Shown piece after piece: positions 801 through 22,725 of a stretch of 22,784 nt of DNA; position 1 is the first letter of the stretch; each line of letters begins with the position of its first letter. Both the position numbers and the translations under genes were made by a program. The DNA is from a bacterium (lineage in GTDB: Bacteria; JAHJDO01), in assembly GCA_030611945.1 (NCBI GenBank), contig JAUWOV010000022.1, positions 1 to 22,784 of the forward strand. The letters run 5' to 3'. Below the pieces are notes generated by a model. It was not told the origin of the DNA and did not search any database. It saw nothing but the letters and a program-made list of their open reading frames with translations.

Positions 801-3758
801 ATGTTGAAGAAAATGATGTATGTCGGGTTAGTTTCGTTTCTGTTTTGTCTTGTTTCCACGCAAGGACATTCAGAGTTGGTAGAAGAAGTTGCTATTCAAC
901 AAGTATCTGAAGCGCCGGTAATAGACGGCAGTCTCTCTGACAAAGTCTGGAAGAAAGCAAAGTGGTATTCTGATTTTCATATTTTTAATAACTTAAAACA
1001 ATCAGCTCAACCAAAAACTTTTTTTGCTATAGTACACGACGGTGAAAATCTCTATGTCGCTGTGAGGGCTGAAGAGCCGGAGCCAAAAAAGATGAAGGCG
1101 GTTGTCACAAAGCGGGATGGCAAGGTCTGGATGGATGACTCTATTGAGATATTTTTGGACTCTGAAGGCAGAGGTTCATACAGTTATCAGTTTGTTGTTA
1201 ATACTAGAGGTACGCTCTTTGACTCAGAGAACGTACGCGGCGGTGTATTTCACAAGCCGGAGTGGAATTCAGATGCAAAGGCAGCCACAAAAACAGGCAG
1301 TGACGCCTGGTTTCTTGAAGTATCAATACCGTTTGCCTGCCTCTCTTTTTCTTCTGAGGAGCCAACCCACTGGAGGCTGAATGTTACCAGGAGTCGTTTT
1401 GCCGCATCCGAAAGAGAGCTTTTCACTTTCGCGCCGGTGAAAGGAAGCTTTCACGATCTCAGAAATTTTGCGTCTGCCTCCATAGAAGACATTGACTTAA
1501 CACCATTCTTAGCTGACCTCAGTCTGGAGAAGATGAAGTTTTTTCATCAAGAAGGTCAGATGACCAGCGCAGTTGGATTTCTGATTGAAAACTCCTCATC
1601 TTTGCCAAGGGAATTGGACATTAAGGCAACTCTCCTGATGGGTGGTAAAGAAGTATCTACTTTATCGGCAATAAAACTTTCCAAAAGGAGTACCCGCCAA
1701 TTGGATATTACCTTTCCTGTTCCACCTGCAGGGGAAGGCATCCTCAGACTAACCTTAAAAGATAAAAAGTTAAAAAAGGTTATCTGCAGCCGGCAGTTTC
1801 CCGTAAAAGTTGATTATACACCCCTAAAGGTAGAAGTCCTCCATCCTCATTACCAGAATGCTATCTTTTCCGGTCAGAAGTTAAAGGATATAGAGTTGGA
1901 GGTAACTGCCGCGTTGGCAGCAAAAGAAAGAAAAGATTACCTGTTTAAATTCTCCTTGAATTCAGATCAGAAAGTTCTCTGTAGTCAGAGCACCGGAATA
2001 AGAGATGAAAGGATGAATATATCCATCCCTCTTCCCATGTTAAAGACAGGAAGTTACCTGATGAAAGGCGCTCTGGTTCATAAACCAACCGGAAAGAGAC
2101 TGGTTACGTGGCAGGAGGTTCTGCGTAAACTGCCCTCTAAAAAAGGGGAGGTCCGTTTTGATGAAAACTTTGTATGTCTGATAGATAATGAGCCTTTCCT
2201 GCCTTTTGGACTCTTTAGTGATAGCTATAGTGGTCCTACGAGAGGATCAGAGGCGATTCGGGAGGCTGTTGAATTAGGCTGTAATGCGCTTTCGTGTGAC
2301 TATTGCAATTGGCGTAAGTGTCTTGACGAATTACATCAATCCGGGCTAAAGGTACTGATAATGCCACATACACAGGGTATTCCACATGCCTGTGGTCCTG
2401 CAAAGGGCTTGGATAAACCATTAACGGCAAAGCAGGAAGAAAGTCTGCGTTCATCTGTCAGAAAAACAAAAGACCTTCCACCGCTCCTTGCGTGGTATAC
2501 AGGCAATGAACCAAAACCACCAGCTGTAAGCCAGGATACAATGAAACAGATTGATAATATTATAAGAGAAGAAGACCCGTACCATCCAAATTGCATTATA
2601 AACGACAAAATTAAAGAGATCGGGTATTATGTGAATGCCATGTCGCTTATTATGCCTGACCCTTATCCTGGCTTTCTGAAAAATGGCACACGGAAGCATC
2701 CAATCAAAACTACATGTCTTGTGGAAGAAGCTGTCTGGGTTAGCAATGGGCGCAAACCTGTCTGGGTTGTGATGCAGGCGTCTAACTGGGGAGGCAAAAA
2801 AGAACGCTCCCCAAACTTTATCGACTTGCGCGGACAGATGTATCAGGCAGCAATTGCAGGCGCAAAAGGGTTCTTCTGGTACTGCCGGCCATGGATAGAG
2901 TCTCATGTGGAAATAGGACTCTCTTTTCTGGCAAAAGAAGCCAAGTTATTGCGTGAGGCAATCTTTGCTCCTGAGTCTTCTTATGAATTTACTGTTGTTA
3001 ATGATGCTGGCAAGAGCAATCACCTGTACATGCTCTCAAGGCGGATGGTGGGCAAAGACTCTTACTTTTTTGTTGTCAATTGTTCTACTAATAAGGAAAC
3101 GAAGTTAACGTTTAATGCCGGCGGTTTAAAAGATAGAGAACTCTTTGTGGTTAGCGAAGCTCGTAATGTTAAAATAAAATCAGGGGAGTTTACTGATTCA
3201 TTTAAACCTTATGACACACACATTTACACCACTAATAAAACCATTGCCAATCAACTGAGTATCCCTGGCGTATATAAAGAGATTAAAGCTAATTGCACTC
3301 CAATCATTAAGCCAGGTAACTTTGCTCATAAGAGTCGTGGGACGAAAGCAAAAGATTCATGGGTAAGAAAGATATTGACAAAGACTTTTGTGTGGAATCC
3401 ACCGCTTGATTTTGTTATTGACGGTATCAAAGGAACTTCAAGCTGGGGGGATGCGAAACGGTCATCCTGGGTGGAGATAATTTTTCCAAAATCGGAGAAA
3501 ATCTGTAAAGCAGTAATAGATTCAAACATTCGTCACTTACAGATTGAGGTGGAGAAGAATGGAGCATGGGTAAGAGTTGCTGATGTAAAAGCAAACACAC
3601 GTGACCGCAGGGAAGTACAAATCGTCAAATTTCCATTGGTAGAAACCCGAAAGTTGCGACTGAAATCTCTGGCTGTAAAAGGTGAAATTATAGGGAAAAA
3701 ACCTCTTCAGACACAGATTTGGGAGATAGAAGTATATGGGAAAGTTTTAGAGTTATAA
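801..3758 (+). CDS. Secreted multidomain protein: CBM9-like, TIM-barrel glycosidase-like, F5/8 type C-like
   Basis: 985 residues, start fixed by AAAGGAG at 788-794, six bases before the ATG. Residues 1-23 form a signal peptide. Residues about 30-230 look like a CBM9/DOMON-like sugar-binding sandwich ([46 protein letters not shown]). A beta-rich linker spans about 240-440. Residues about 450-720 resemble a clan GH-A TIM barrel: PFGLFSDSY, a [12 protein letters not shown] strand, [18 protein letters not shown] with Glu570 at the usual acid/base place, and KPVWVVMQA where the second catalytic Glu would be expected but Gln659 is seen. The last 110 or so residues look like a discoidin (F5/8 type C) fold ([17 protein letters not shown] to IWEIEVYGK). 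It presumably binds or processes an extracellular glycan. Whether it is catalytically active is uncertain, and I cannot assign a GH family. Confidence 0.8.
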
Positions 3759-7375: not shown

Positions 7376-8548
7376 ATGACTTCTAAAGAGAGAATGTTAA
7401 TTGCTATTCAAAACGGTAAAGCTGACCGTGTGCCGGTGGCCCCGGATATATCCAATATGATTCCCTGTAAGTTGACAGGCAAACCATTCTGGGAGTTTTA
7501 TCTACAGGATCCTCTTTCAGGTGGAGGAGTCAGGGTTCGTTTAGCCAGAGCATATCTTTCGGCAGTGAAATATTTCGGCTTTGACGGGTGGGACGGTGGC
7601 TATGTTAATTTGGATCCAAGTAAGGAAGAAAAAAAGGAGTTTAGCAGGGAAATTATAGAAAAGGATGAAGAGAAGATCGTTGCCAGAGAATCCTTTCATA
7701 CTCCTGAAGGAACATTATGGCAGGAGATGGTCTACAGGATTGATAACCCTCCAGCACTTCGCAGAATGTTAATCAAAGATTTTAAGAAAGATTTTTCTCT
7801 CTATCTCAAGTACTGGTTTCCTGATCCTTCTTCCTGCGATGACAAGGAATTTCAGAAGTGGAAGTGGAAAATGGGGAGCTTTGGTGTTACTGCTTTGTCT
7901 ATAGGTTGTCCAGGGCTGCATGTTTTAGTGAGCCTGATTGACGGAGGCAATAAAATGAGCAGCATGGAGGCTTCGACTTATGCTTACTATGACTATCCTG
8001 AACTCTTTCGCGAATATGCTCTTGTTTATGAAGATTGGGCAGTAAAGATGACCAAGAGGTTTATTAAAGCCAAACCTGATTATATTATGACCGGCGGCTC
8101 AGGAATGATAACTTTACAGTCTCCTGAGATATTCAGAGACTTAGGGCTTCCAACTCTAAAGAAGGTAACAAAATTAGCTAAAGATGCAGGAATTCCCACT
8201 CTTGTTCATTGTTGCGGCAAGGCAAAAGAACTGGTAAAAATCTGCGCTGAAGAAACTGATTTAAGCTGTATCAACCCTTTAGAAGTCCCTCCAATGGGAG
8301 ATTGTATCCTTAAGGAAATTAAAGAGAAACACGGAGACAAAATTGCTTTAATGGGAAATCTTCATACAACTGAAGTAATGCTCAAAGGTTCGGTGAAGGA
8401 TGTTGAAGAAGCTTCAAAAAAGGCAATTGATGATGCTGGAGAGAACGGAGGATTTATTCTTTCTACCGGTGACCAATGCGGTAGGGACACACCGGAAGAG
8501 AATATCTTTAAAATGGTAGAGGTAGCAAAAACATATGGCAAGTATTAA
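7376..8548 (+). CDS. UroD/MtaA-family protein with zinc-type methyltransferase motif
   Basis: 390 residues, starting one base after the GH3 stop, with CAGGGAG at 7358-7364 as ribosome-binding site. The fold family is uroporphyrinogen decarboxylase-like (N-terminal SKERMLIAIQNGKADRVPVAPD). It also has His278-x-Cys280 (within LVHCCGK) and Cys368 (within GDQCGRD), the His-x-Cys...Cys pattern that holds zinc in cobamide-dependent methyltransferases such as MtaA and CmuA. This argues against a haem-pathway HemE and for methyl-transfer or related chemistry. Homologues of this type recur beside sugar-degrading genes in environmental genomes with no known function. No corrinoid protein or other methyltransferase partner is in the window. 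Its place between glycosidases and oxidoreductases suggests a step in catabolism, perhaps on a methylated substrate; that is speculation. Confidence 0.82.
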   Translation: MTSKERMLIAIQNGKADRVPVAPDISNMIPCKLTGKPFWEFYLQDPLSGGGVRVRLARAYLSAVKYFGFDGWDGGYVNLDPSKEEKKEFSREIIEKDEEKIVARESFHTPEGTLWQEMVYRIDNPPALRRMLIKDFKKDFSLYLKYWFPDPSSCDDKEFQKWKWKMGSFGVTALSIGCPGLHVLVSLIDGGNKMSSMEASTYAYYDYPELFREYALVYEDWAVKMTKRFIKAKPDYIMTGGSGMITLQSPEIFRDLGLPTLKKVTKLAKDAGIPTLVHCCGKAKELVKICAEETDLSCINPLEVPPMGDCILKEIKEKHGDKIALMGNLHTTEVMLKGSVKDVEEASKKAIDDAGENGGFILSTGDQCGRDTPEENIFKMVEVAKTYGKY

Positions 8549-14394: not shown

Positions 14395-15369
14395 CTATTT
14401 AAGGATTTTCTTTACAGCCTGATAAATCTTTTCCTGTGTGGGTCTGACAAATTCCTCTAATGGAGGACTAAAGGGAATAGGAGTATTCTCATTAGCTACA
14501 CGCTCAATAGGTCCATCTAAAAAGTCAAAGACTTCTTCTGTAACCATGACCGCTATCTCAGCAGTTATGCCTGCTTGCTTTACTCCTTCATCTACAATAA
14601 CCAGCCGGCCTGTCTTTTTAACCGAGTTAATAATAGTTGTCTTATCCATAGGGACAAGAGTTCGCAGGTCTATTACTTCCACCTTTATATCTTCTTCTTT
14701 TAGTCTATCAGCCACAATCATAGATTCTTTAACCATAGATGAGGTAGCAATAATAGTTACGTCTTTCCCTTCTCTCTTAATATCAGCATTGCCAATAGAT
14801 ATAGTATATTCTTCTTCTGGCACTTCTCCTTTTTTATTGTACATCCCCTTATGCTCAAAAATCATGACAGGATCCTCATCACGAATGGCGGATTTTAAAA
14901 GACCTTTTACTTCATAAGGGCTGGAAGGCATGATAACTTTTAAGCCGGGTGTATGGCAAAACCATGCATGCAAACTTTGGGAGTGCTGGGCTGCAGAAGA
15001 CCTGCCAGCGCCGATATTGGTTCTTATTACCAAAGGTACACTTAGTTTGCCTCCTGACATATACCGTATCTTGGCTGCTTGATTGACAATCTGATCCATA
15101 GCTGTACAGACAAAATCGCCAAACATAAGTTCTGCTACCGGCCGAAAACCAGCCATAGCCAATCCAACAGCACATCCTATTATGCCTGATTCAGATATAG
15201 GGGTATCTAATACTCTCTTTTCACCAAATTCTTGATATAAACCAGCTGTTGCTCGAAAATTTCCTCCCAGAATACCTACATCTTCACCCAGGACAACCAC
15301 ATTCTCATCACACCTCATTTCTTCAGCCAATGCCTCTTTTATGGCCTGAGCATAGGTTATTTCTCTCAT
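14395..15369 (-). CDS. TPP-dependent 2-oxoacid/acetoin dehydrogenase E1 component, beta subunit
   Basis: 324 residues from the ATG at 15369, chosen because AGAGGA (15376-15381) lies six bases upstream and the protein then begins MREITYAQAIKEALAEEM, as family members do; the ATG 12 codons earlier lies inside the E1-alpha gene. Family segments include GEDVGILGGNFRAT, DTPISESGIIGCAVGLAMAG, the TPP/potassium-binding region around GDFVCTAMDQIVNQAAKIRYM, GAGRSSAAQHSQSLHAWF and IDLRTLVPMD. With the alpha subunit it would form the alpha2beta2 decarboxylating E1 of a pyruvate, acetoin or branched-chain complex. No E2 or E3 gene follows; the operon ends here and the purD promoter comes next. Confidence 0.93.
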   Translation of the reverse strand: MREITYAQAIKEALAEEMRCDENVVVLGEDVGILGGNFRATAGLYQEFGEKRVLDTPISESGIIGCAVGLAMAGFRPVAELMFGDFVCTAMDQIVNQAAKIRYMSGGKLSVPLVIRTNIGAGRSSAAQHSQSLHAWFCHTPGLKVIMPSSPYEVKGLLKSAIRDEDPVMIFEHKGMYNKKGEVPEEEYTISIGNADIKREGKDVTIIATSSMVKESMIVADRLKEEDIKVEVIDLRTLVPMDKTTIINSVKKTGRLVIVDEGVKQAGITAEIAVMVTEEVFDFLDGPIERVANENTPIPFSPPLEEFVRPTQEKIYQAVKKILK

Positions 15370-15385
15370 ATCAAATCCTCTGCTT

Positions 15386-16351
15386 TTATTTAGCGAAGAT
15401 GTCATCTAGCGCTTCTTCCGGAGCAGGATAAGAACTTTTTCTGGCAAATTCAATGGCTTTATCTACTCTCTGTTTTATTTCGTTTTCGATATTATCTATT
15501 TCAGTTTGGGTCAATATCTTCCTCTTAATAAGTGAGAACTTAAATCCCTTAATTGGACACTTATCTTTCCATAATTTAACCTCCTTTGGAGGACGATAAG
15601 CTGTTCCAGGATCGCCAACATGATGTCCTCCCCAGCGATAGGTCTTGCATTCAATTAAGGTTGATCCTTTTCCTTCCCGGGCATGATTAATAGCTTTTTG
15701 GGCTACCTCATAGACAGCCAAAACATCATTCCCGTCCACGATCTCTCCAGGGATACCATAAGCTTTCGCCCTTGTAGCTACATCCTCTATATTTTGACTT
15801 CTTTGTTGAGAAACGGAAATAGCATAGAGATTATTCTCGCATACATAGACGATTGGTAACTTCCAAAGAGAGCCCATATTTAAACCTTCATGAAAAGCAC
15901 CTTGATTTGAAGCCCCTTCTCCAAAGAAACATATTGTAACCCGACTATCCTTTTCAAGCTTAGAAGAAAGTCCAAGACCAGTAGCAATAGGAATGCTTCC
16001 CCCTACAATTCCATTAGCTCCCATTATACCTAATTCAGGAGCCGCAATGTGCATAGAACCACCTTTGCCTTTGCAGTAACCTGTAACTTTACCCATAACC
16101 TCAGCCATCATTTTGTTTAAGTCTCCACCTTTAGCTATGAGATGTCCATGTCCACGATGTGTGCTGGTGATATAGTCATCTTTTTTCAGATTTTCACATA
16201 CTCCTACAGCAATGGCTTCCTGACCAATATAAAGATGAGCCAATCCTGGCATCCATCCCTGAGCATAAACATAATAGATAGCTTCTTCAAAACATCTTAT
16301 CTCAAGCATCTTTCTCAGCATTTCAACCAGTTTTTCTTTAGAGAGTTTCAT
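15386..16351 (-). CDS. TPP-dependent 2-oxoacid/acetoin dehydrogenase E1 component, alpha subunit
   Basis: 321 residues. The TPP-binding motif is GEGASNQG (144-151) running to ENN (172-174) and NLYAISVS. Upstream are GLAHLYIGQEAIAVG and STHRGHGHLIAKGGDLNKMMAEVMGK, the pattern of pyruvate and acetoin dehydrogenase E1-alpha (AcoA/PdhA type). It decarboxylates a 2-oxo acid or cleaves acetoin and would hand the acyl group to a lipoyl E2 not encoded here. The start overlaps the aldehyde dehydrogenase stop as ATGA; E1-beta follows after 16 bases. Substrate choice between pyruvate, acetoin and others cannot be settled by eye. Confidence 0.93.
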   Translation of the reverse strand: MKLSKEKLVEMLRKMLEIRCFEEAIYYVYAQGWMPGLAHLYIGQEAIAVGVCENLKKDDYITSTHRGHGHLIAKGGDLNKMMAEVMGKVTGYCKGKGGSMHIAAPELGIMGANGIVGGSIPIATGLGLSSKLEKDSRVTICFFGEGASNQGAFHEGLNMGSLWKLPIVYVCENNLYAISVSQQRSQNIEDVATRAKAYGIPGEIVDGNDVLAVYEVAQKAINHAREGKGSTLIECKTYRWGGHHVGDPGTAYRPPKEVKLWKDKCPIKGFKFSLIKRKILTQTEIDNIENEIKQRVDKAIEFARKSSYPAPEEALDDIFAK

Positions 16352-17808
16352 TTTTTGTAATTAATATATACAGATTTGTTTTCAGTAAAAAATTCTATTC
16401 CTGTGTCTCCAGCTTCAGGCAGCCCATATCCTGAGGATTTAATGCCTCCAAATGGAAGCTGTGGTTCCTTGAAGCTGGTAGGTAGATTTACATGAGTTAG
16501 TCCCACCTCAGTCTTTTTAATAAATTCCATAGCGCTGGACATGTCTTTGGTATATATAGAGGAAGATAGGCCATATTGAATTCCGTTAGCTATAGACAGA
16601 GCTTCAGAGAAGTTGTCAGCTTCTATTATAGAAAGAACAGGACCAAATATCTCTTCTTGAGCTATTCGCATATTCGGTTTAACATCAGTAAAAATAGTTG
16701 GCTCTACAAAAAAGCCTCTATCATATTGAGCCCATTCTAATCTTTTTCCGCCAAAAATAAGTCTAGCACCTTCTTGCTTTCCTAATTCAATATATTCCAA
16801 AACCCTGTTCAGCTGAGATTCTCCGGCTAAAGGCCCCATAGAAGTATCCTTGTTTAGCCCATCTCCTACTTTAATCTTCTTTGCCTTTTTAATCAGAATA
16901 TCAATAAAATCGTCAGCTATTTTTTTATCCAGAATTACTCGACTGGTAGAGGTGCACCATTGACCAGAGCAACTATAGGCAGCAAGAAATACGCCACTAG
17001 CAGCAAGCTCCAAGTTTGCATCTTCTAAAACAACAGTAGGATTTTTGCCTCCCATCTCTAATTGCGTCCTAACCATATTCTCAGAGGCAATTCTATTTAT
17101 TCTTGCTCCAATCTCATTTGAACCTGTAAAGGATATAGCTTTAATAAATTTGTTAGCTATCATCTCATCCCCTATTTTTGAGCCAGCTCCGGTAACAAAA
17201 TTTAAAACTCCATCAGGGATTCCTGCCTCATTAAGTATCTCCACAAACTTCAAGCCGCAAAGAGGTGTAAAAGAAGCAGGTTTAAAGATAACGGTATTTC
17301 CAGCCATCAATGCAGGCGTAATCTTCCGGCATGGAACATTCACAGGAAAGTTCCATGGGCTTAAGATTGAAACAACACCAAGTGGCTGTCTTATAGTATA
17401 GGAGAAGCTCTTTTCATTTTCAGGAAAAGAGCTTTTACCAAATAACCGTTGTCCCTGAGCGATCTGAAACTCCATCTCCTTTATTGCCGATTTAATCTCT
17501 GCTTCTGACTCTTTTAGTGTTTTCCCCTCTTCCAATGTTAAATATTTTGCCAATTTATTCTGCTGCTCTTTTAATAGACTAACAGCTTGAGAAAGAACGT
17601 TAGCGCGTTTGGAAGGAGACCATTTGCCCCAGATCCCAAAGGCTCTACTTGCAGATTCAATCGCTTTTTTCACATCCTCCGCATTTGATTGTTGGAAATA
17701 TCCAATTATTTGTTTTTGATTAGCTGGATTGATATCTGGAAAAACTTTTCCTGATACTGAATCCAGCCATTTTCCATCAATATAGTTTTTATATGTAGTT
17801 ATATTCAT
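16348..17808 (-). CDS. NAD(P)-dependent aldehyde dehydrogenase
   Basis: 486 residues, standard length for the ALDH superfamily. NFPVNVPCRKITPALMAGN and VIFKPA carry the cofactor and oxyanion residues, FTGSNEIG is the Rossmann turn, Glu251 in LEMGGKNP is the general base and Cys285 in GQWCTSTS the nucleophile; EEIFGPVLSII and the C-terminal LPFGGIKSSGYG are also present. It is close to the succinate-semialdehyde/lactaldehyde/glycolaldehyde group, but the aldehyde cannot be named with certainty. In this operon, lactaldehyde from deoxysugar cleavage is a reasonable candidate. It starts 19 bases after the fucosidase stop and overlaps E1-alpha by four bases. Confidence 0.94.
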   Translation of the reverse strand: MNITTYKNYIDGKWLDSVSGKVFPDINPANQKQIIGYFQQSNAEDVKKAIESASRAFGIWGKWSPSKRANVLSQAVSLLKEQQNKLAKYLTLEEGKTLKESEAEIKSAIKEMEFQIAQGQRLFGKSSFPENEKSFSYTIRQPLGVVSILSPWNFPVNVPCRKITPALMAGNTVIFKPASFTPLCGLKFVEILNEAGIPDGVLNFVTGAGSKIGDEMIANKFIKAISFTGSNEIGARINRIASENMVRTQLEMGGKNPTVVLEDANLELAASGVFLAAYSCSGQWCTSTSRVILDKKIADDFIDILIKKAKKIKVGDGLNKDTSMGPLAGESQLNRVLEYIELGKQEGARLIFGGKRLEWAQYDRGFFVEPTIFTDVKPNMRIAQEEIFGPVLSIIEADNFSEALSIANGIQYGLSSSIYTKDMSSAMEFIKKTEVGLTHVNLPTSFKEPQLPFGGIKSSGYGLPEAGDTGIEFFTENKSVYINYKK

Positions 17809-17827: not shown

Positions 17828-19099
17828 TTATACATTTGGACGCAGACAGAGTGAGACCACAGTGTCTCGTGGATCTGGCATATGCGCCGGCATTAGAACA
17901 CACAAATCTTTCTCCCTATCTTTTATCCCTGGCGCTGTGCCAGCCCTGGATAACGCAGTATAGTCCTCTATCTTTAGGTTTGTGCCGTCTCCAAGCAATG
18001 TAGCATACTTCACTTTGCCAGCCAGTTCAGGGAGAGCTAGCCACCCCTGTTGACAGTGAAAAAGATGCAGATAAAGCATCTCTTGTTTCTGAGTGTATCG
18101 TGCATCGGTAGGTGGAATGAACTTGCTTATACCTGCCCCATAGATTGATTCCCCATTCTTGCTCATCCACTGGCCAATTTCTTGGAGATTTGTTACGAAT
18201 TCATCCTGGATTCGCCCTCGTGGAGTAGGTCCGACATTCAAGAGCAGATTACCGTCTTTACTGACTGTATCCACAAGCATTCTGATTAATTGAGTAGTAG
18301 ACTTGTTTTCTGGATCCTGACGATAATATCCCCAGGACTGACCTATTGTCATACACGATTCCCACATCCTGGTTTTATCTCCATCCTTAATTACATCCTC
18401 GGGTATATACTGTTCAGGAGTTGTAAAATCTTCGGGTAACCCAAGCCGGTTATTGATCAGGATTTCAGGATTTATTTCTCTTGTCATACGAATAATTTCT
18501 TCTGATTCCCATTCTTTTGCTCCCTTTCCCTCATACGAGAAATCAGACCATAGAATGTCAATCTTCCCATAGTTAGTCAGTAACTCGCGCAATTGTCCAT
18601 GAAGATAGGAAACATACTGACTCCATTCCCTTTTTCCCGACTTTGCTTCTTCATCGTTACGTTGAGGGTGCAGGCTGTCAATAGTGTAGTGCTGATGATG
18701 CCAGTCAAGAAGAGAATAATAGAAGCCAACTTTTAAACCAACATTCCTAAAAGCTTCAATCCATGGCTTAATGAGATCCTTACCATAGGGTGTGTTAGTT
18801 ATCTTGAAATCAGTTAACTTGCTATCAAAAAGACAGAAGCCATCGTGATGTTTTGTTGTAATAACCGCATACTTCATTCCCGCATCTCTCGCTAATTCAG
18901 CCCATTGGGATGGGTTATAATCTATGGGATTAAATCTATTGAAAAGCTTTTCATACTTTTCCCTCGGAACCTCCTCCTTTGAATAATACCACATGTCCTT
19001 TGCAGTGATTGAATAAAGTCCCCAATGAATAAACATTCCGAATCTTGCGTTACGAAACCAGGTTGTGCGATCAGTCTCAATTGATTTGCTTATAGTCAT
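17828..19099 (-). CDS. GH29 alpha-L-fucosidase
   Basis: 423 residues. The N-terminal catalytic barrel shows WFRNARFGMFIHWGLYSI, KYAVITTKHHDGFCLFDSK (His94-His95 pair of the fucose pocket) and GKIDILWSDFSYEG with Asp196 at the nucleophile place, then INPEILINNR and DGNLLLNVGPTPRGRI, all typical of GH29. A small C-terminal beta domain (about 335-423) follows. No signal peptide is present, so it should work in the cytoplasm on imported fucosylated oligosaccharides, releasing L-fucose. Some GH29 members accept other substrates, so fucose is the family expectation rather than proof. The gene lies mid-operon, 36 bases after an SDR and 19 bases before the aldehyde dehydrogenase. Confidence 0.92.
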   Translation of the reverse strand: MTISKSIETDRTTWFRNARFGMFIHWGLYSITAKDMWYYSKEEVPREKYEKLFNRFNPIDYNPSQWAELARDAGMKYAVITTKHHDGFCLFDSKLTDFKITNTPYGKDLIKPWIEAFRNVGLKVGFYYSLLDWHHQHYTIDSLHPQRNDEEAKSGKREWSQYVSYLHGQLRELLTNYGKIDILWSDFSYEGKGAKEWESEEIIRMTREINPEILINNRLGLPEDFTTPEQYIPEDVIKDGDKTRMWESCMTIGQSWGYYRQDPENKSTTQLIRMLVDTVSKDGNLLLNVGPTPRGRIQDEFVTNLQEIGQWMSKNGESIYGAGISKFIPPTDARYTQKQEMLYLHLFHCQQGWLALPELAGKVKYATLLGDGTNLKIEDYTALSRAGTAPGIKDREKDLCVLMPAHMPDPRDTVVSLCLRPNV

Positions 19100-19135: not shown

Positions 19136-19897
19136 CTAATATCCTAACGTTACTCCACCGTCAATATTGAGTGTAATGCCGGTTACAAAAGCGGCATCAT
19201 TACTTGCCAGATAAAGAGCTGCTTCACCGCACTCCTCAATTGTTCCAATACGGCCAAGTGGATGCTGACCAAAAATATATCTGCGCGCAGCCTCCGGGTC
19301 TTTCTGCTGAGAAAACCAGTCGTCAACCAGCGGAGTCTGGATCCAACCAGGACAGATAACGTTCACACGAATCCCATCTGGCGCAAAGTCAATTGCCATG
19401 CCTTTGCTCATGGCTATCTGACCGCCCTTAGTAGCAGAATATGCTCCTGCGTTTGGCTGACCAACAAGACCCACCATACTGCTGATATTAACTATATTCC
19501 CTTTTGTTTTGCGCAGGTGCTGTATTGAATACTTACTGCAGAGAAATGTGCTGCGCAGATTTGTATTTATGATAAATTCCCATTCCTGCTCAGAAGTCTC
19601 CTCTACGTTCTTTGATATATGGTATCCAGCATTATTCACCAGAATATCGAGCTTACCGAATGTCTTGATTGTAGTATCAATCATGTTCTGGATGGACTTA
19701 CTACTTGTTACATCGGTTTTTAGAAAGATTGCTCTTCCTTCAGAAGCTCCAAGTTTCTCAGCCATTTTTTCCCCAGCATCTTCCGTACGACATACAATAA
19801 CCACCTTCGCCCCTTCCCGGAAAAATACCCGCGCAATGCCCTCGCCAATACCTTTGCTTGAGCCGGTCACAATGGCTACCTTATCTTTTAAACGCAT
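19136..19897 (-). CDS. Short-chain dehydrogenase/reductase (classical SDR)
   Basis: 253 residues. TGSSKGIG at 11-18 is the nucleotide-binding turn, NNAG sits at 88-91, and the catalytic Ser139/140, Tyr153 and Lys157 are in place (NISSMVG, YSATKGG). CPGWIQTPLV and the closing GITLNIDGG are family features. The residues after beta-2 (CRTED) lack the acidic end that favours NAD, so NADP is possible. SDRs of this kind include FabG, sugar 1-dehydrogenases (L-fucose, L-rhamnose) and keto-deoxy-acid dehydrogenases. The fucosidase next door suggests a sugar or sugar-acid substrate, by context only. It lies between the solute-binding homologue (10-base gap) and the fucosidase. Confidence 0.93.
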   Translation of the reverse strand: MRLKDKVAIVTGSSKGIGEGIARVFFREGAKVVIVCRTEDAGEKMAEKLGASEGRAIFLKTDVTSSKSIQNMIDTTIKTFGKLDILVNNAGYHISKNVEETSEQEWEFIINTNLRSTFLCSKYSIQHLRKTKGNIVNISSMVGLVGQPNAGAYSATKGGQIAMSKGMAIDFAPDGIRVNVICPGWIQTPLVDDWFSQQKDPEAARRYIFGQHPLGRIGTIEECGEAALYLASNDAAFVTGITLNIDGGVTLGY

Positions 19898-19907
19898 AAC
19901 AAACCTC

Positions 19908-21128
19908 CTAACTTAAAATTTGATTAATCTTTTCTGCAGCTTGATTTAAAGCTTCTTTAACGCTGCATTCTCCCTTATATCCTTTCTGTAGGTTTATCCA
20001 TAGAGCATCCTCTATCGCCGGATATTTAGCCAACTTAGGCGGGATAAGTATGAAGTTGGCTACTGTCTCTTCAAGCATTTTAAGACGTTTCTCTTCCAGA
20101 GAGCCAGGTATAGCTTCTTCTCTAATTTTTTGCTGAGCTAGTTTTTTAACTGAAATAGCTCCACGTTTTGCCTCTTCATACTGCATCTTTTCAGAGAGTA
20201 AAAACCTCATCAAAGCTAAAGCGCCTCCTCTATCGTGGCAACTATTTGGAATGGCGTAGGAAAAACCGCCTGCATAGACACACCTCTTTCCAGATGGTCC
20301 AATTGGATAAATAGCTACGGCAAACTTATCCCCAACTTTTGATAATCCCGGGTCTTTGTATGTGGCGAATGAACCTGGCCAGTCTGTAGTCATAGCAGCC
20401 TTACCATCTCGGAAGCATTGGGCTACTTCATCATAATGCCATTCTGGTACTTCTTTGGGACAGACCTTATCTTCGTAATAGAGATTACGTAATAACCCTA
20501 AAGCCCATTCTCCAGCTTCATTGACAAATTGGGGCTTCAGATTATCATCTAGCAACACGCCTTCAGCCATGGTTAAAAGTTCAAAAAAGTGACCGAACAA
20601 TCCAGAATAACGGCCGGGGAAAACAAAACCGTAAAGATCAGGGGGTCGGGTAAAGAAATTAGCTATATCCTTTAACTTTTCCCAGGTATGGGGAGGCTCT
20701 AATGGGTAACCATACTTATTTTGGAAGGCCTCTTTCTCTTTTGGATCATCAAAGAGATCTTTGCGATAATAGACTAACTTTACATCAATATTTCGGGGAA
20801 GCTGCATCAGCCTGCCATTAATTCGCATAAGCTCAAGTGTTGCCGGGATAAATGAAGAGAGCTCTTCTTCATTGATATCATCATCTAATGGAGTTAACCA
20901 CTTCTCTTGAGATGGAGCATACTTAGAGTGGGTAGTGATGAGGTCATAATCGCCTCTCCCCTGGCTATAAAGGGATGAAATATGTTCATTAAGTTCCGGA
21001 TGAACAAGTTTTGCACCTATCTCAACTTTGTATCCGGTCTCTCGTTCAAACTCCGGGATTTTAGAATAAGGATAGTCATACATCGGACCGCCAACAAAAG
21101 CCACTTTAAGATATTTTTTTCTCCCCAT
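19908..21128 (-). CDS. Solute-binding-protein homologue (ABC family 1) lacking a signal peptide
   Basis: 406 residues. From residue 8 (LKVAFVGGP) it reads like the mature part of a MalE/UgpB-type sugar-binding protein: GDYDLITTHSKYAPSQEKWLTPLDDD, RLMQLPRNIDVKLVYYRKDLFDD, HTWEKLKDIANFFT, FRDGKAAMTTDWPGSF, GGFSYAIPNSCHDRGGALALMRFLLS. The N-terminus is MGRKKYLKVA with no hydrophobic leader and no lipobox. The upstream SDR stops only 10 bases earlier and AAGGAG lies five bases before the ATG, so no missed upstream leader fits. It would stay in the cytoplasm unless exported another way. No permease or ATPase gene is in the window. It could be a sensor for the neighbouring regulator or a degraded transporter part; neither is shown. 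Confidence 0.85.
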   Translation of the reverse strand: MGRKKYLKVAFVGGPMYDYPYSKIPEFERETGYKVEIGAKLVHPELNEHISSLYSQGRGDYDLITTHSKYAPSQEKWLTPLDDDINEEELSSFIPATLELMRINGRLMQLPRNIDVKLVYYRKDLFDDPKEKEAFQNKYGYPLEPPHTWEKLKDIANFFTRPPDLYGFVFPGRYSGLFGHFFELLTMAEGVLLDDNLKPQFVNEAGEWALGLLRNLYYEDKVCPKEVPEWHYDEVAQCFRDGKAAMTTDWPGSFATYKDPGLSKVGDKFAVAIYPIGPSGKRCVYAGGFSYAIPNSCHDRGGALALMRFLLSEKMQYEEAKRGAISVKKLAQQKIREEAIPGSLEEKRLKMLEETVANFILIPPKLAKYPAIEDALWINLQKGYKGECSVKEALNQAAEKINQILS

Positions 21129-21138
21129 TTTTTCTCCT

Positions 21139-21891
21139 TCAGTCCATTACAAATCCACCATTGACATCCAATATCTCACCGGTAATGTACGAAGCATTTT
21201 TTGAAGCCAAAAAGACCACTGCTTTGGCTACATCCTCAGGGCTCCCCATAAACCCAAGGGGAATAGAGCACTTGTATTTTTTCTTCAATTTGGGACTTAC
21301 TTTTATATTAACTCCCCCATCTATCACCCCAGGAGCAATAGCATTGACACGTATTCCCAACGGAGCACATTCCAAAGCTAAAGATTTAGTTAAAGAAATC
21401 ACTCCTGCCTTTGAAGCAGCATAATGTGCGCCTACACCAAAACCACCTGTCTTCCCTGCTGCTGAGGCTATATTTATAACAACGCCACTGCAACTTTTCT
21501 TCATCCATGGTAAAATTAGCTGGGATAGGAGAAAAATACTTTTTAAATTTATAGCAAAAACTTGGTCCCATTCCTTTTCTTTTATCTGATTAAAAGTTGT
21601 GCGGGGGCAGATACCAGCGTTATTAATGAGAATATCAATCCCTTTATAAATCTGAATAACCCGTTTAATAAACTTTTTTGCTTCGCCTTTTTTGGAGACA
21701 TCAACTTTCATGGCCATACTGGAAGGGCTATAAATTTTTATCTTTTCAACAACTCTCCTAGCCGCATTTATATCTAAATCAGCTACAACTACTTTGGCCC
21801 CTTCTCTGGCTAAAGCCAAACTAATTGCTTCTCCTAGTCCTTTGCCGCCGCCTGTAACAATAGCTAATTTTTCATTTAAATCATATTTCAT
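21139..21891 (-). CDS. Short-chain dehydrogenase/reductase (classical SDR), NAD type
   Basis: 250 residues. TGGGKGLG at 13-20, NNAG at 90-93, catalytic Ser143, Tyr157 and Lys161 (NIASAAG, YAASKAG) are intact. Asp38 at the end of beta-2 (VVADLD) is the usual sign of NAD rather than NADP preference, unlike the other SDR of this operon. The C-terminal ITGEILDVNGGFVMD is a standard SDR ending. In the operon context a sugar or 2-keto-3-deoxy acid dehydrogenase role is likely; FabG-like activity is the alternative. Its ATG overlaps the regulator's stop (ATGA), so it is the first structural gene under direct translational coupling to the regulator. Confidence 0.93.
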   Translation of the reverse strand: MKYDLNEKLAIVTGGGKGLGEAISLALAREGAKVVVADLDINAARRVVEKIKIYSPSSMAMKVDVSKKGEAKKFIKRVIQIYKGIDILINNAGICPRTTFNQIKEKEWDQVFAINLKSIFLLSQLILPWMKKSCSGVVINIASAAGKTGGFGVGAHYAASKAGVISLTKSLALECAPLGIRVNAIAPGVIDGGVNIKVSPKLKKKYKCSIPLGFMGSPEDVAKAVVFLASKNASYITGEILDVNGGFVMD

Positions 21892-22565
21892 TTTTGAAAA
21901 TCGCTTAGAATATATTTCTTTGTATTTAAAATATGTTCTTTCATTAATTTCCGGACTTCATCTATATCTTGTTTAATCAATGCTTTTAATATTTTATCAT
22001 GCTCTTTCCATGCCTGTTTTGCTCGTATAGGACGATAGTAGCCCATAACACGAAATATCTGTACAAAGTTATATAAACTCTCTAAAAACTCAATAAGCCG
22101 CTTATTTCCACAACAATTAATAATAATCCTGTGAAATTCCGAATCGAGTTTAGCTAATTGAGTAGCTGAATTTTTAGAAAGATAAATCTTGCTTTGCTTG
22201 AGTAATTTTTTTAGCTTGTTTAATTCTTTTTCAGTTATCTTAGAGCCAGACAGGCAGATAGCCAACCCCTCTAATACCTGACGAATCTCGTATACTTCAT
22301 CAACATCCTTGATGCCTAATTTCCTCACAGAACCACCTTTTCTGGGGATAAGCTCAATTAATCCATCCTTAGCAAGTAGGTTTAAAGCCGCTCTTATTGG
22401 GGTACGGCTTATGTTAAGTTCCTTAGATAGACTTTCTTCAATAAGTCTATCCCCTGCTTTTATCTTTTGGGTTACCAGCCAATTAGATAGGAGATCGTAG
22501 ACCTTGGTGCTTAAATCCATATGATGAAAAAAGTCTTGGTCTATACTCTTTTTTCCAGAAATCAT
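21888..22565 (-). CDS. GntR-family transcriptional regulator, FadR/FCD subfamily
   Basis: 225 residues. The winged helix (about 15-85) has GDRLIEESLSKELNISRTPIRAAL then GLIELIPRKGGSVR, typical GntR. The FCD effector domain (about 88-215) begins DVDEVYEIRQVLEGLA and shows the metal-site pattern Asp141-x3-His145 (DSEFH), His189 and His211. FCD domains bind organic acids or sugar acids through the metal, so an aldonate-like inducer (for example L-fuconate) fits the operon. It leads the eight-gene minus-strand unit, overlaps the first SDR by four bases, and is preceded by a promoter and an inverted repeat suited to autoregulation. Confidence 0.93.
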   Translation of the reverse strand: MISGKKSIDQDFFHHMDLSTKVYDLLSNWLVTQKIKAGDRLIEESLSKELNISRTPIRAALNLLAKDGLIELIPRKGGSVRKLGIKDVDEVYEIRQVLEGLAICLSGSKITEKELNKLKKLLKQSKIYLSKNSATQLAKLDSEFHRIIINCCGNKRLIEFLESLYNFVQIFRVMGYYRPIRAKQAWKEHDKILKALIKQDIDEVRKLMKEHILNTKKYILSDFQK

Positions 22566-22583: not shown

Positions 22584-22600
22584 TTGTATTCTGTATACAA
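22584..22600 (-). promoter_or_regulatory. Probable GntR operator
   Basis: TTGTAT, five bases (TCTGT), ATACAA: a perfect 6-bp inverted repeat of 17 bp overall, whose right half contains the palindrome TGTATACA of the GT-N2-AC type bound by FadR/FCD regulators. It directly follows the predicted -10 box and lies 18 bases before the regulator ATG, a position that suits repression of the regulator's own operon. Confidence 0.6.
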
Positions 22601-22693: not shown

Positions 22694-22725
22694 GACCCCA
22701 TCCCGAAAGCTTTCGGGATGGGGTC
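22694..22725. repeat. Perfect 32-bp GC-rich palindrome
   Basis: The 16-base arm GACCCCATCCCGAAAG is followed at once by its exact complement, centred on AAGCTT. The flanks are AT-rich. No T-run follows on either strand, so it does not look like an intrinsic terminator. A weaker imperfect hairpin around CCTAGG (about 22665-22687) lies just before it. It may be a dispersed palindromic repeat or a cruciform/protein site in the divergent intergenic region; only one copy is in the window. Confidence 0.75.

Follow-up and report, generated by a model that had tools for sequence, protein, structure and literature searches.

The hallmark of a solute-binding protein that serves an ABC importer is an export or lipoprotein leader, and our search of the literature on leaderless or cytoplasmic solute-binding proteins yielded little beyond three reports (PMC3795266; PMC9602780; PMC5259723). 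NasS from Paracoccus denitrificans keeps the ligand residues of NrtA but has no leader, and it releases NasT in response to nitrate or nitrite. Its authors warned that annotation pipelines label such proteins as extracellular binding proteins (PMC3795266). AmiC from Pseudomonas aeruginosa is described as a cytosolic protein that releases AmiR in response to acetamide (PMC5259723; also PMC9602780). In a survey of 49 model strains, approximately 1% of the proteins retrieved automatically with solute-binding-protein profiles were predicted to be cytosolic (PMC9602780).

Here we describe cSBP, a leaderless, stand-alone family 1 binding protein encoded in a catabolic operon. Like NasS, which is encoded with the metabolic system it serves (PMC3795266), cSBP is a leaderless and presumably cytosolic relative of an ABC binding protein. 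However, NasS is a relative of NrtA and thus of another solute-binding-protein family, its ligand is nitrate or nitrite, and its partner NasT is an ANTAR protein. AmiC resembles cSBP in being a cytosolic single-domain binding protein of a catabolic operon and is ligand-responsive, but its ligand is an amide and it has an adjacent antiterminator, AmiR (PMC9602780; PMC5259723). When measured against sensors of the AmiC/NasS type, cSBP is a leaderless binding-protein homolog but lacks an adjacent ANTAR partner: we recognized no ANTAR antiterminator among its neighbors in four loci, and a GntR regulator is adjacent in two of these. AmiC also represents the type I fold class of solute-binding proteins, which differs from that of cSBP.

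The window, by which we mean the whole stretch of 22,784 nucleotides that was analyzed, carries the following features:

22584 to 22600, no strand assigned: putative GntR operator, TTGTAT-N5-ATACAA (inverted-repeat comparison)
21888 to 22565, minus strand: FCD-type GntR regulator that heads the operon, 47% identical to its counterpart at locus L002 (Pfam, comparison)
21139 to 21891, minus strand: SDR1, short-chain dehydrogenase upstream of cSBP, shared by the window and L002 alone with 51% identity (Pfam, comparison)
21129 to 21138, minus strand: gap of 10 bases from the stop of SDR1 to the start of cSBP, containing an AAGGAG ribosome-binding site (sequence)
19908 to 21128, minus strand: cSBP, leaderless family 1 solute-binding protein of 406 amino acids (open reading frame, Pfam, leader inspection)
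19136 to 19897, minus strand: SDR2, short-chain dehydrogenase adjoining cSBP in four of four loci, 91-97% conserved (Pfam, comparison)
17828 to 19099, minus strand: alpha-L-fucosidase-like protein (PF01120) without a leader, between SDR2 and ALDH (Pfam, sequence)
16348 to 17808, minus strand: aldehyde dehydrogenase (ALDH), 72% identical to that of L002 (Pfam, comparison)
15386 to 16351, minus strand: TPP-dependent dehydrogenase E1 alpha (PF00676) (Pfam, comparison)
14395 to 15405, minus strand: TPP-dependent dehydrogenase E1 beta (PF02779, PF02780) (Pfam, comparison)

The sequence-only reading of this DNA had taken cSBP for the mature part of a family 1 binding protein, and the domain searches bear this out. 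The open reading frame is real and runs on the minus strand, a detail that the earlier reading left out. The protein matches PF01547 (E 1.6e-25, 91.2 bits against a cut-off of 26) and PF13416 (E 3.6e-23, 83.2 bits against a cut-off of 27), the solute-binding match spans residues 23-332, and the Pfam scan returned solute-binding domains only, with no N-terminal GntR DNA-binding domain. Its best solved relatives are sugar-binding proteins, namely MalE3 (6dtq, E 2.5e-29), SmoF (7nbz) and TMBP (1eu8). The N-terminus, MGRKKYLKVAFVGG, leads straight into the mature fold, whose first strand corresponds to residues 7-14 (LKVAFVGG).

The same reading held that there is no room for a leader, and this conclusion also stands. 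The bases that separate cSBP from SDR1, which ends at 21139, are AAGGAGAAAA, and they place a good match to a ribosome-binding site before the ATG. The frame is 412 amino acids long from stop to stop and hence offers at most six codons upstream of the ATG. No leader-like stretch was found in any frame within the 160 upstream bases examined, where the best hydropathy over 11 residues is 1.66, versus at least 2.3 in the leaders of relatives. Sec-type leaders are in use in this organism, as the open reading frame at 801-3758 of the window starts with one.

Orthologs with 75-76% identity to cSBP are present in L002, from an unclassified bacterial metagenome-assembled genome (CSMAG_2252), and in L003, from a Latescibacterota genome of the same kind (CSMAG_1544). 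A fourth cSBP is encoded at L009, in a genome (G074) of the same phylum as L003. At all four loci, which come from separate assemblies and differ in upstream sequence, the protein is leaderless and its frame is complete, with no inner stop, and none of the loci includes a permease gene. As had been proposed, the protein should be cytoplasmic. This cSBP is evidently no lone 5' deletion among normal homologs, given that its three orthologs are leaderless too, and four independent assemblies free of a hidden leader or frameshift dispose of a sequencing error. No match at E <= 1e-30 was found in the four other genomes of the window's genus, so that one of five carries the gene, nor in the rest of the first survey, and a scan of viral contigs found no relative.

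Synonymous divergence is saturated in every pair that includes the window's cSBP, at 75% amino-acid identity, and dN/dS estimates consequently rest on the remaining pairs. The ratio is approximately 0.09 between L002 and L003 (dN 0.089, dS 1.04) and approximately 0.19 between L003 and L009 (dN 0.030, dS 0.159). The gene is kept under purifying selection, which speaks against a relic.

The nearest leader-bearing relatives occur in the phylum of genome G355 (12 of 50 genomes, 32-50% identity) and on rhizobial megaplasmids (34%), where a binding protein of an ABC importer lies beside L-fuconate dehydratase (L004, L005). These proteins are homologous to cSBP over their full length, and every leader-family relative with a readable start has a clear hydrophobic leader, the leader status of L077 being unread as its start is cut or incomplete. 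Permease genes of the MalF/MalG type, 46-53% identical to the rhizobial ones, lie directly downstream of the binding-protein gene in L066, L079, L080, L083, L084 and L086. A single permease follows in L082, and L081 has a pair on the strand of the binding-protein gene, approximately 7 kb upstream of it. These relatives, then, have a leader, and permeases lie directly downstream in nearly all the loci inspected, whereas cSBP has neither and differs at several invariant positions. We also noted that L085 (3006-5789, genome G467) carries two tandem leader-bearing genes and shows no permease in the 16 kb inspected, and that genes for UroD-like (methyltransferase-like) proteins recur by leader-bearing operons (L079, L080, L081, L082, L083 and L085). 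A UroD-like gene is likewise present in the window's plus-strand gene run (7376-8548).

In the phylogenetic tree, the four proteins without a leader group together as a single clade (100/100), which sits inside a leader-bearing family of 17 rows (100/100). One protein is represented twice, as rows L076 and L078, although two different tandem genes exist, and this leaves the leaderless clade unaffected. The label ‘leader’ changes three times over the whole tree, once at the cSBP clade. Taken together, this nesting and the permease neighborhoods of the relatives indicate that a single loss of the leader and the permease genes accounts for the cSBP clade.

Other leaderless proteins with this fold fall elsewhere on the tree. 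Fusions of a GntR domain with PF01547 are encoded in two genomes of the window's genus (L036:1216-2574 and L040:1192-2577) and in G059 (L049:1129-2631). Like cSBP, they have a cytoplasmic family 1 binding domain that lacks a leader and, judging by their architecture, would be cytosolic sensors, but they carry a DNA-binding domain on the same chain and occupy a separate branch. Descent of cSBP from such fusions was considered and is unsupported by the tree. A rhizobial protein encoded beside a CaiB/BaiF CoA-transferase gene (P0003) likewise stands alone without a leader among enzyme genes, yet its sequence is distant, its pathway is another one, and its separate branch is so long that its exact placement is unsure. 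Because the fusions and the CaiB-linked protein are placed elsewhere on the tree, cytosolic use of the family 1 fold probably arose more than once. In the literature searched we found no published role for the CaiB-linked protein. Its gene comes right after that of the CoA-transferase in L005 (5771-6904) and L056 (5995-7131), close to a leader-bearing sugar-binding-protein operon in both, and matches to it occur in 202 plasmid records, mostly from Sinorhizobium, the weakest of which are distant.

That cSBP has no partner transporter had been suggested from the window, where no transporter gene is seen among the larger open reading frames, and the genome (1.66 Mb, 91% complete) agrees. Its only PF01547 protein is cSBP, and its only PF00528 permease appears by eye to be of the phosphate (PstC/PstA-like) type, Pfam giving only PF00528. 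On that reading, no sugar ABC importer was found in the 91% complete genome, and cSBP has cognate permeases neither in its operon nor as an orphan pair elsewhere in the assembly.

The genes on the minus strand form a compact run in the order GntR, SDR1, cSBP, SDR2, fucosidase-like, ALDH, E1 alpha and E1 beta. Only SDR2, immediately downstream, is an invariant neighbor, and it is more strongly conserved than cSBP itself. Each of the four loci also has E1 genes near cSBP, even though the L003 and L009 copies are only 35-41% identical to the window's. The GntR and SDR1 genes are common to the window and L002 only, and in both SDR1 is complete and conserved up to its stop. The fucosidase-like gene present between SDR2 and ALDH in the window is absent from that position in L002. 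Just upstream of gntR, TTGTAT-N5-ATACAA forms a perfect inverted repeat in both the window and L002 (6477-6493). Copies of the window's own region aside, it occurs nowhere else among the 88 loci examined, and, with at most one mismatch tolerated, chance alone would give 0.03 matches in the window. This repeat is a candidate operator for the GntR protein, and in these two loci the operon is probably controlled by the FCD-type regulator through it. Also upstream of the GntR operon (22694-22725) is a perfect 16-base inverted repeat whose arms, GACCCCATCCCGAAAG and CTTTCGGGATGGGGTC, directly abut.

Twelve leader-bearing relatives share 82 invariant positions, and 52 of these are retained in the alignment by all four leaderless proteins, including G13, G14, Y17, H67, R112, D115 and W250. 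Other invariant positions carry the same change throughout the clade, for example E174Y, E175S, W253S, W285Y and H289F, and RYSGL (173-177) aligns with the RYEGL stretch of 6dtq. This pattern suggests a functional cleft with a shifted ligand, and because the changes are fixed across the clade, the ligand may have changed or its binding may have been altered. A comparison of motif segments (109 of 123 invariant residues versus 167 of 277) used segments chosen post hoc from the alignment and carries no weight, and a structure predicted from a three-row alignment, with a mean pLDDT of 42, is too poor for use. The fucosidase-like gene, together with the fuconate genes beside the rhizobial relatives, gives a hint that the ligand might be a deoxy-sugar or its acid, but a weak one because the fucosidase gene is missing from the L002 operon.

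We consider it likely that cSBP binds a ligand in the cytosol in one capacity or another. Our preferred reading, to which we assign a probability of about 0.5, is that it serves the SDR/E1 pathway there as a ligand-binding sensor or as a regulatory protein. This reading is drawn by analogy, because the characterized cytosolic binding-protein homologs, NasS and AmiC, are ligand sensors. The GntR-PF01547 fusions in the window's genus, where the family 1 fold appears to be employed in cytoplasmic sensing, also favor it. As the tree and neighborhoods show, a binding protein of a carbohydrate ABC importer became cSBP once, by losing its leader and permease genes, and was then retained by purifying selection beside SDR2 and near the TPP-dependent E1 dehydrogenase. 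Under our model, the protein would close in the cytoplasm on a compound that the SDR/E1 pathway uses as a substrate or forms as an intermediate, much as AmiC and NasS respond to their ligands, and its ligand-bound or empty form would control a partner. This partner could be an enzyme of the pathway, for instance SDR2, or a regulator whose gene lies at another locus. We regard SDR2 as the leading candidate, since no other gene adjoins cSBP at every locus.

Against a sensor, no regulator is constant at the cSBP loci: GntR is adjacent in two of four, and at a third (L003) no regulator gene is seen by eye in the 8 kb upstream. The clade-wide changes at family-invariant positions also count against this reading. 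The sequence-only reading had placed cSBP between two SDR genes and close to a GntR regulator, an arrangement that Pfam confirms for the window, with a GntR protein of the FCD type. It had also proposed a search for leaderless homologs in SDR/GntR neighborhoods. The orthologs are leaderless and adjacent to SDR2 in every case, but GntR lies beside only two of the four. A dedicated pair of cSBP and GntR, which that reading implied, does not appear to be the best guess, because the regulator brings an FCD effector domain of its own and is missing next to cSBP in L003.

Perhaps cSBP is instead a cytosolic carrier or buffer that does no signaling and either hands a sugar-like substrate to SDR2 or lowers its free level. 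The constant neighbor is, after all, an enzyme and no regulator, and, among the 385 and 64 genomes searched, every one with a very close SDR2 homolog (E <= 1e-95) carries cSBP too, although this threshold also missed a truncated SDR2 copy in G060. Because the characterized cytosolic precedents are sensors, we hold this idea only tentatively. We know of no established role for this fold in passing a substrate to a soluble enzyme.

Binding-protein folds have turned into enzymes, as in MqnA/MqnD and THI5-type proteins, and cSBP might act on a pathway intermediate. Its gene is embedded among enzyme genes, and several family-invariant aromatic or charged positions have changed uniformly across the clade. 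However, we recognized no catalytic motif or cofactor site, and the family pattern is still that of a solute-binding protein, with strong PF01547 and PF13416 scores, which makes an enzyme unlikely. We are similarly doubtful of another scenario, in which the binding protein of a sugar importer turned, in a single event, into a cytosolic protein that acts as an allosteric partner to SDR2 or to the SDR/E1 pathway, and in which this protein and SDR2 spread together among unrelated bacterial lineages.

It is very unlikely that cSBP still functions in transport, with export that bypasses a classical leader and with permeases supplied from other loci. Further PF01547 proteins and permeases do exist in G059, with fewer in G060 and G074, and both G059 and G074 carry more permeases than G060. 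Yet the window's genome has a single permease of apparent PstC/PstA type, both G060 permeases adjoin another, leader-bearing binding protein, and leader-bearing relatives rely on ordinary leaders. The case is not absolute, because the assemblies are incomplete. That cSBP is the remnant of a transport operon in decay, or that faulty assembly masks its leader, is scarcely credible: its restriction to one genome of its genus and the fragmentary assemblies could favor this, but complete frames agree across four assemblies, dN/dS is low where measurable, SDR1 is intact to its stop, and conservation in genomes of more than one lineage contradicts it.

The sensor reading, if correct, would not make cSBP the first of its kind. 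The proposal that such a role is hardly described for the family was too strong, because AmiC and NasS are known as cytosolic binding-protein sensors (PMC3795266; PMC9602780; PMC5259723) and GntR-PF01547 fusions occur in the same genus. Rather, cSBP is a clear case in the large family 1 group, in which a tree locates the change from a component of an importer to a cytosolic protein, the leader and permeases being lost while the fold is kept. If the allosteric-partner scenario were true, a binding protein would act straight on an enzyme to control it, with no transporter, receptor or transcription factor in between. The role of cSBP is testable, as both the protein and its constant enzyme neighbor are defined. 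More broadly, our findings suggest that leaderless binding proteins, including the cSBP clade, the GntR fusions and the CaiB-linked rhizobial group, merit a systematic census as cytosolic metabolite sensors.
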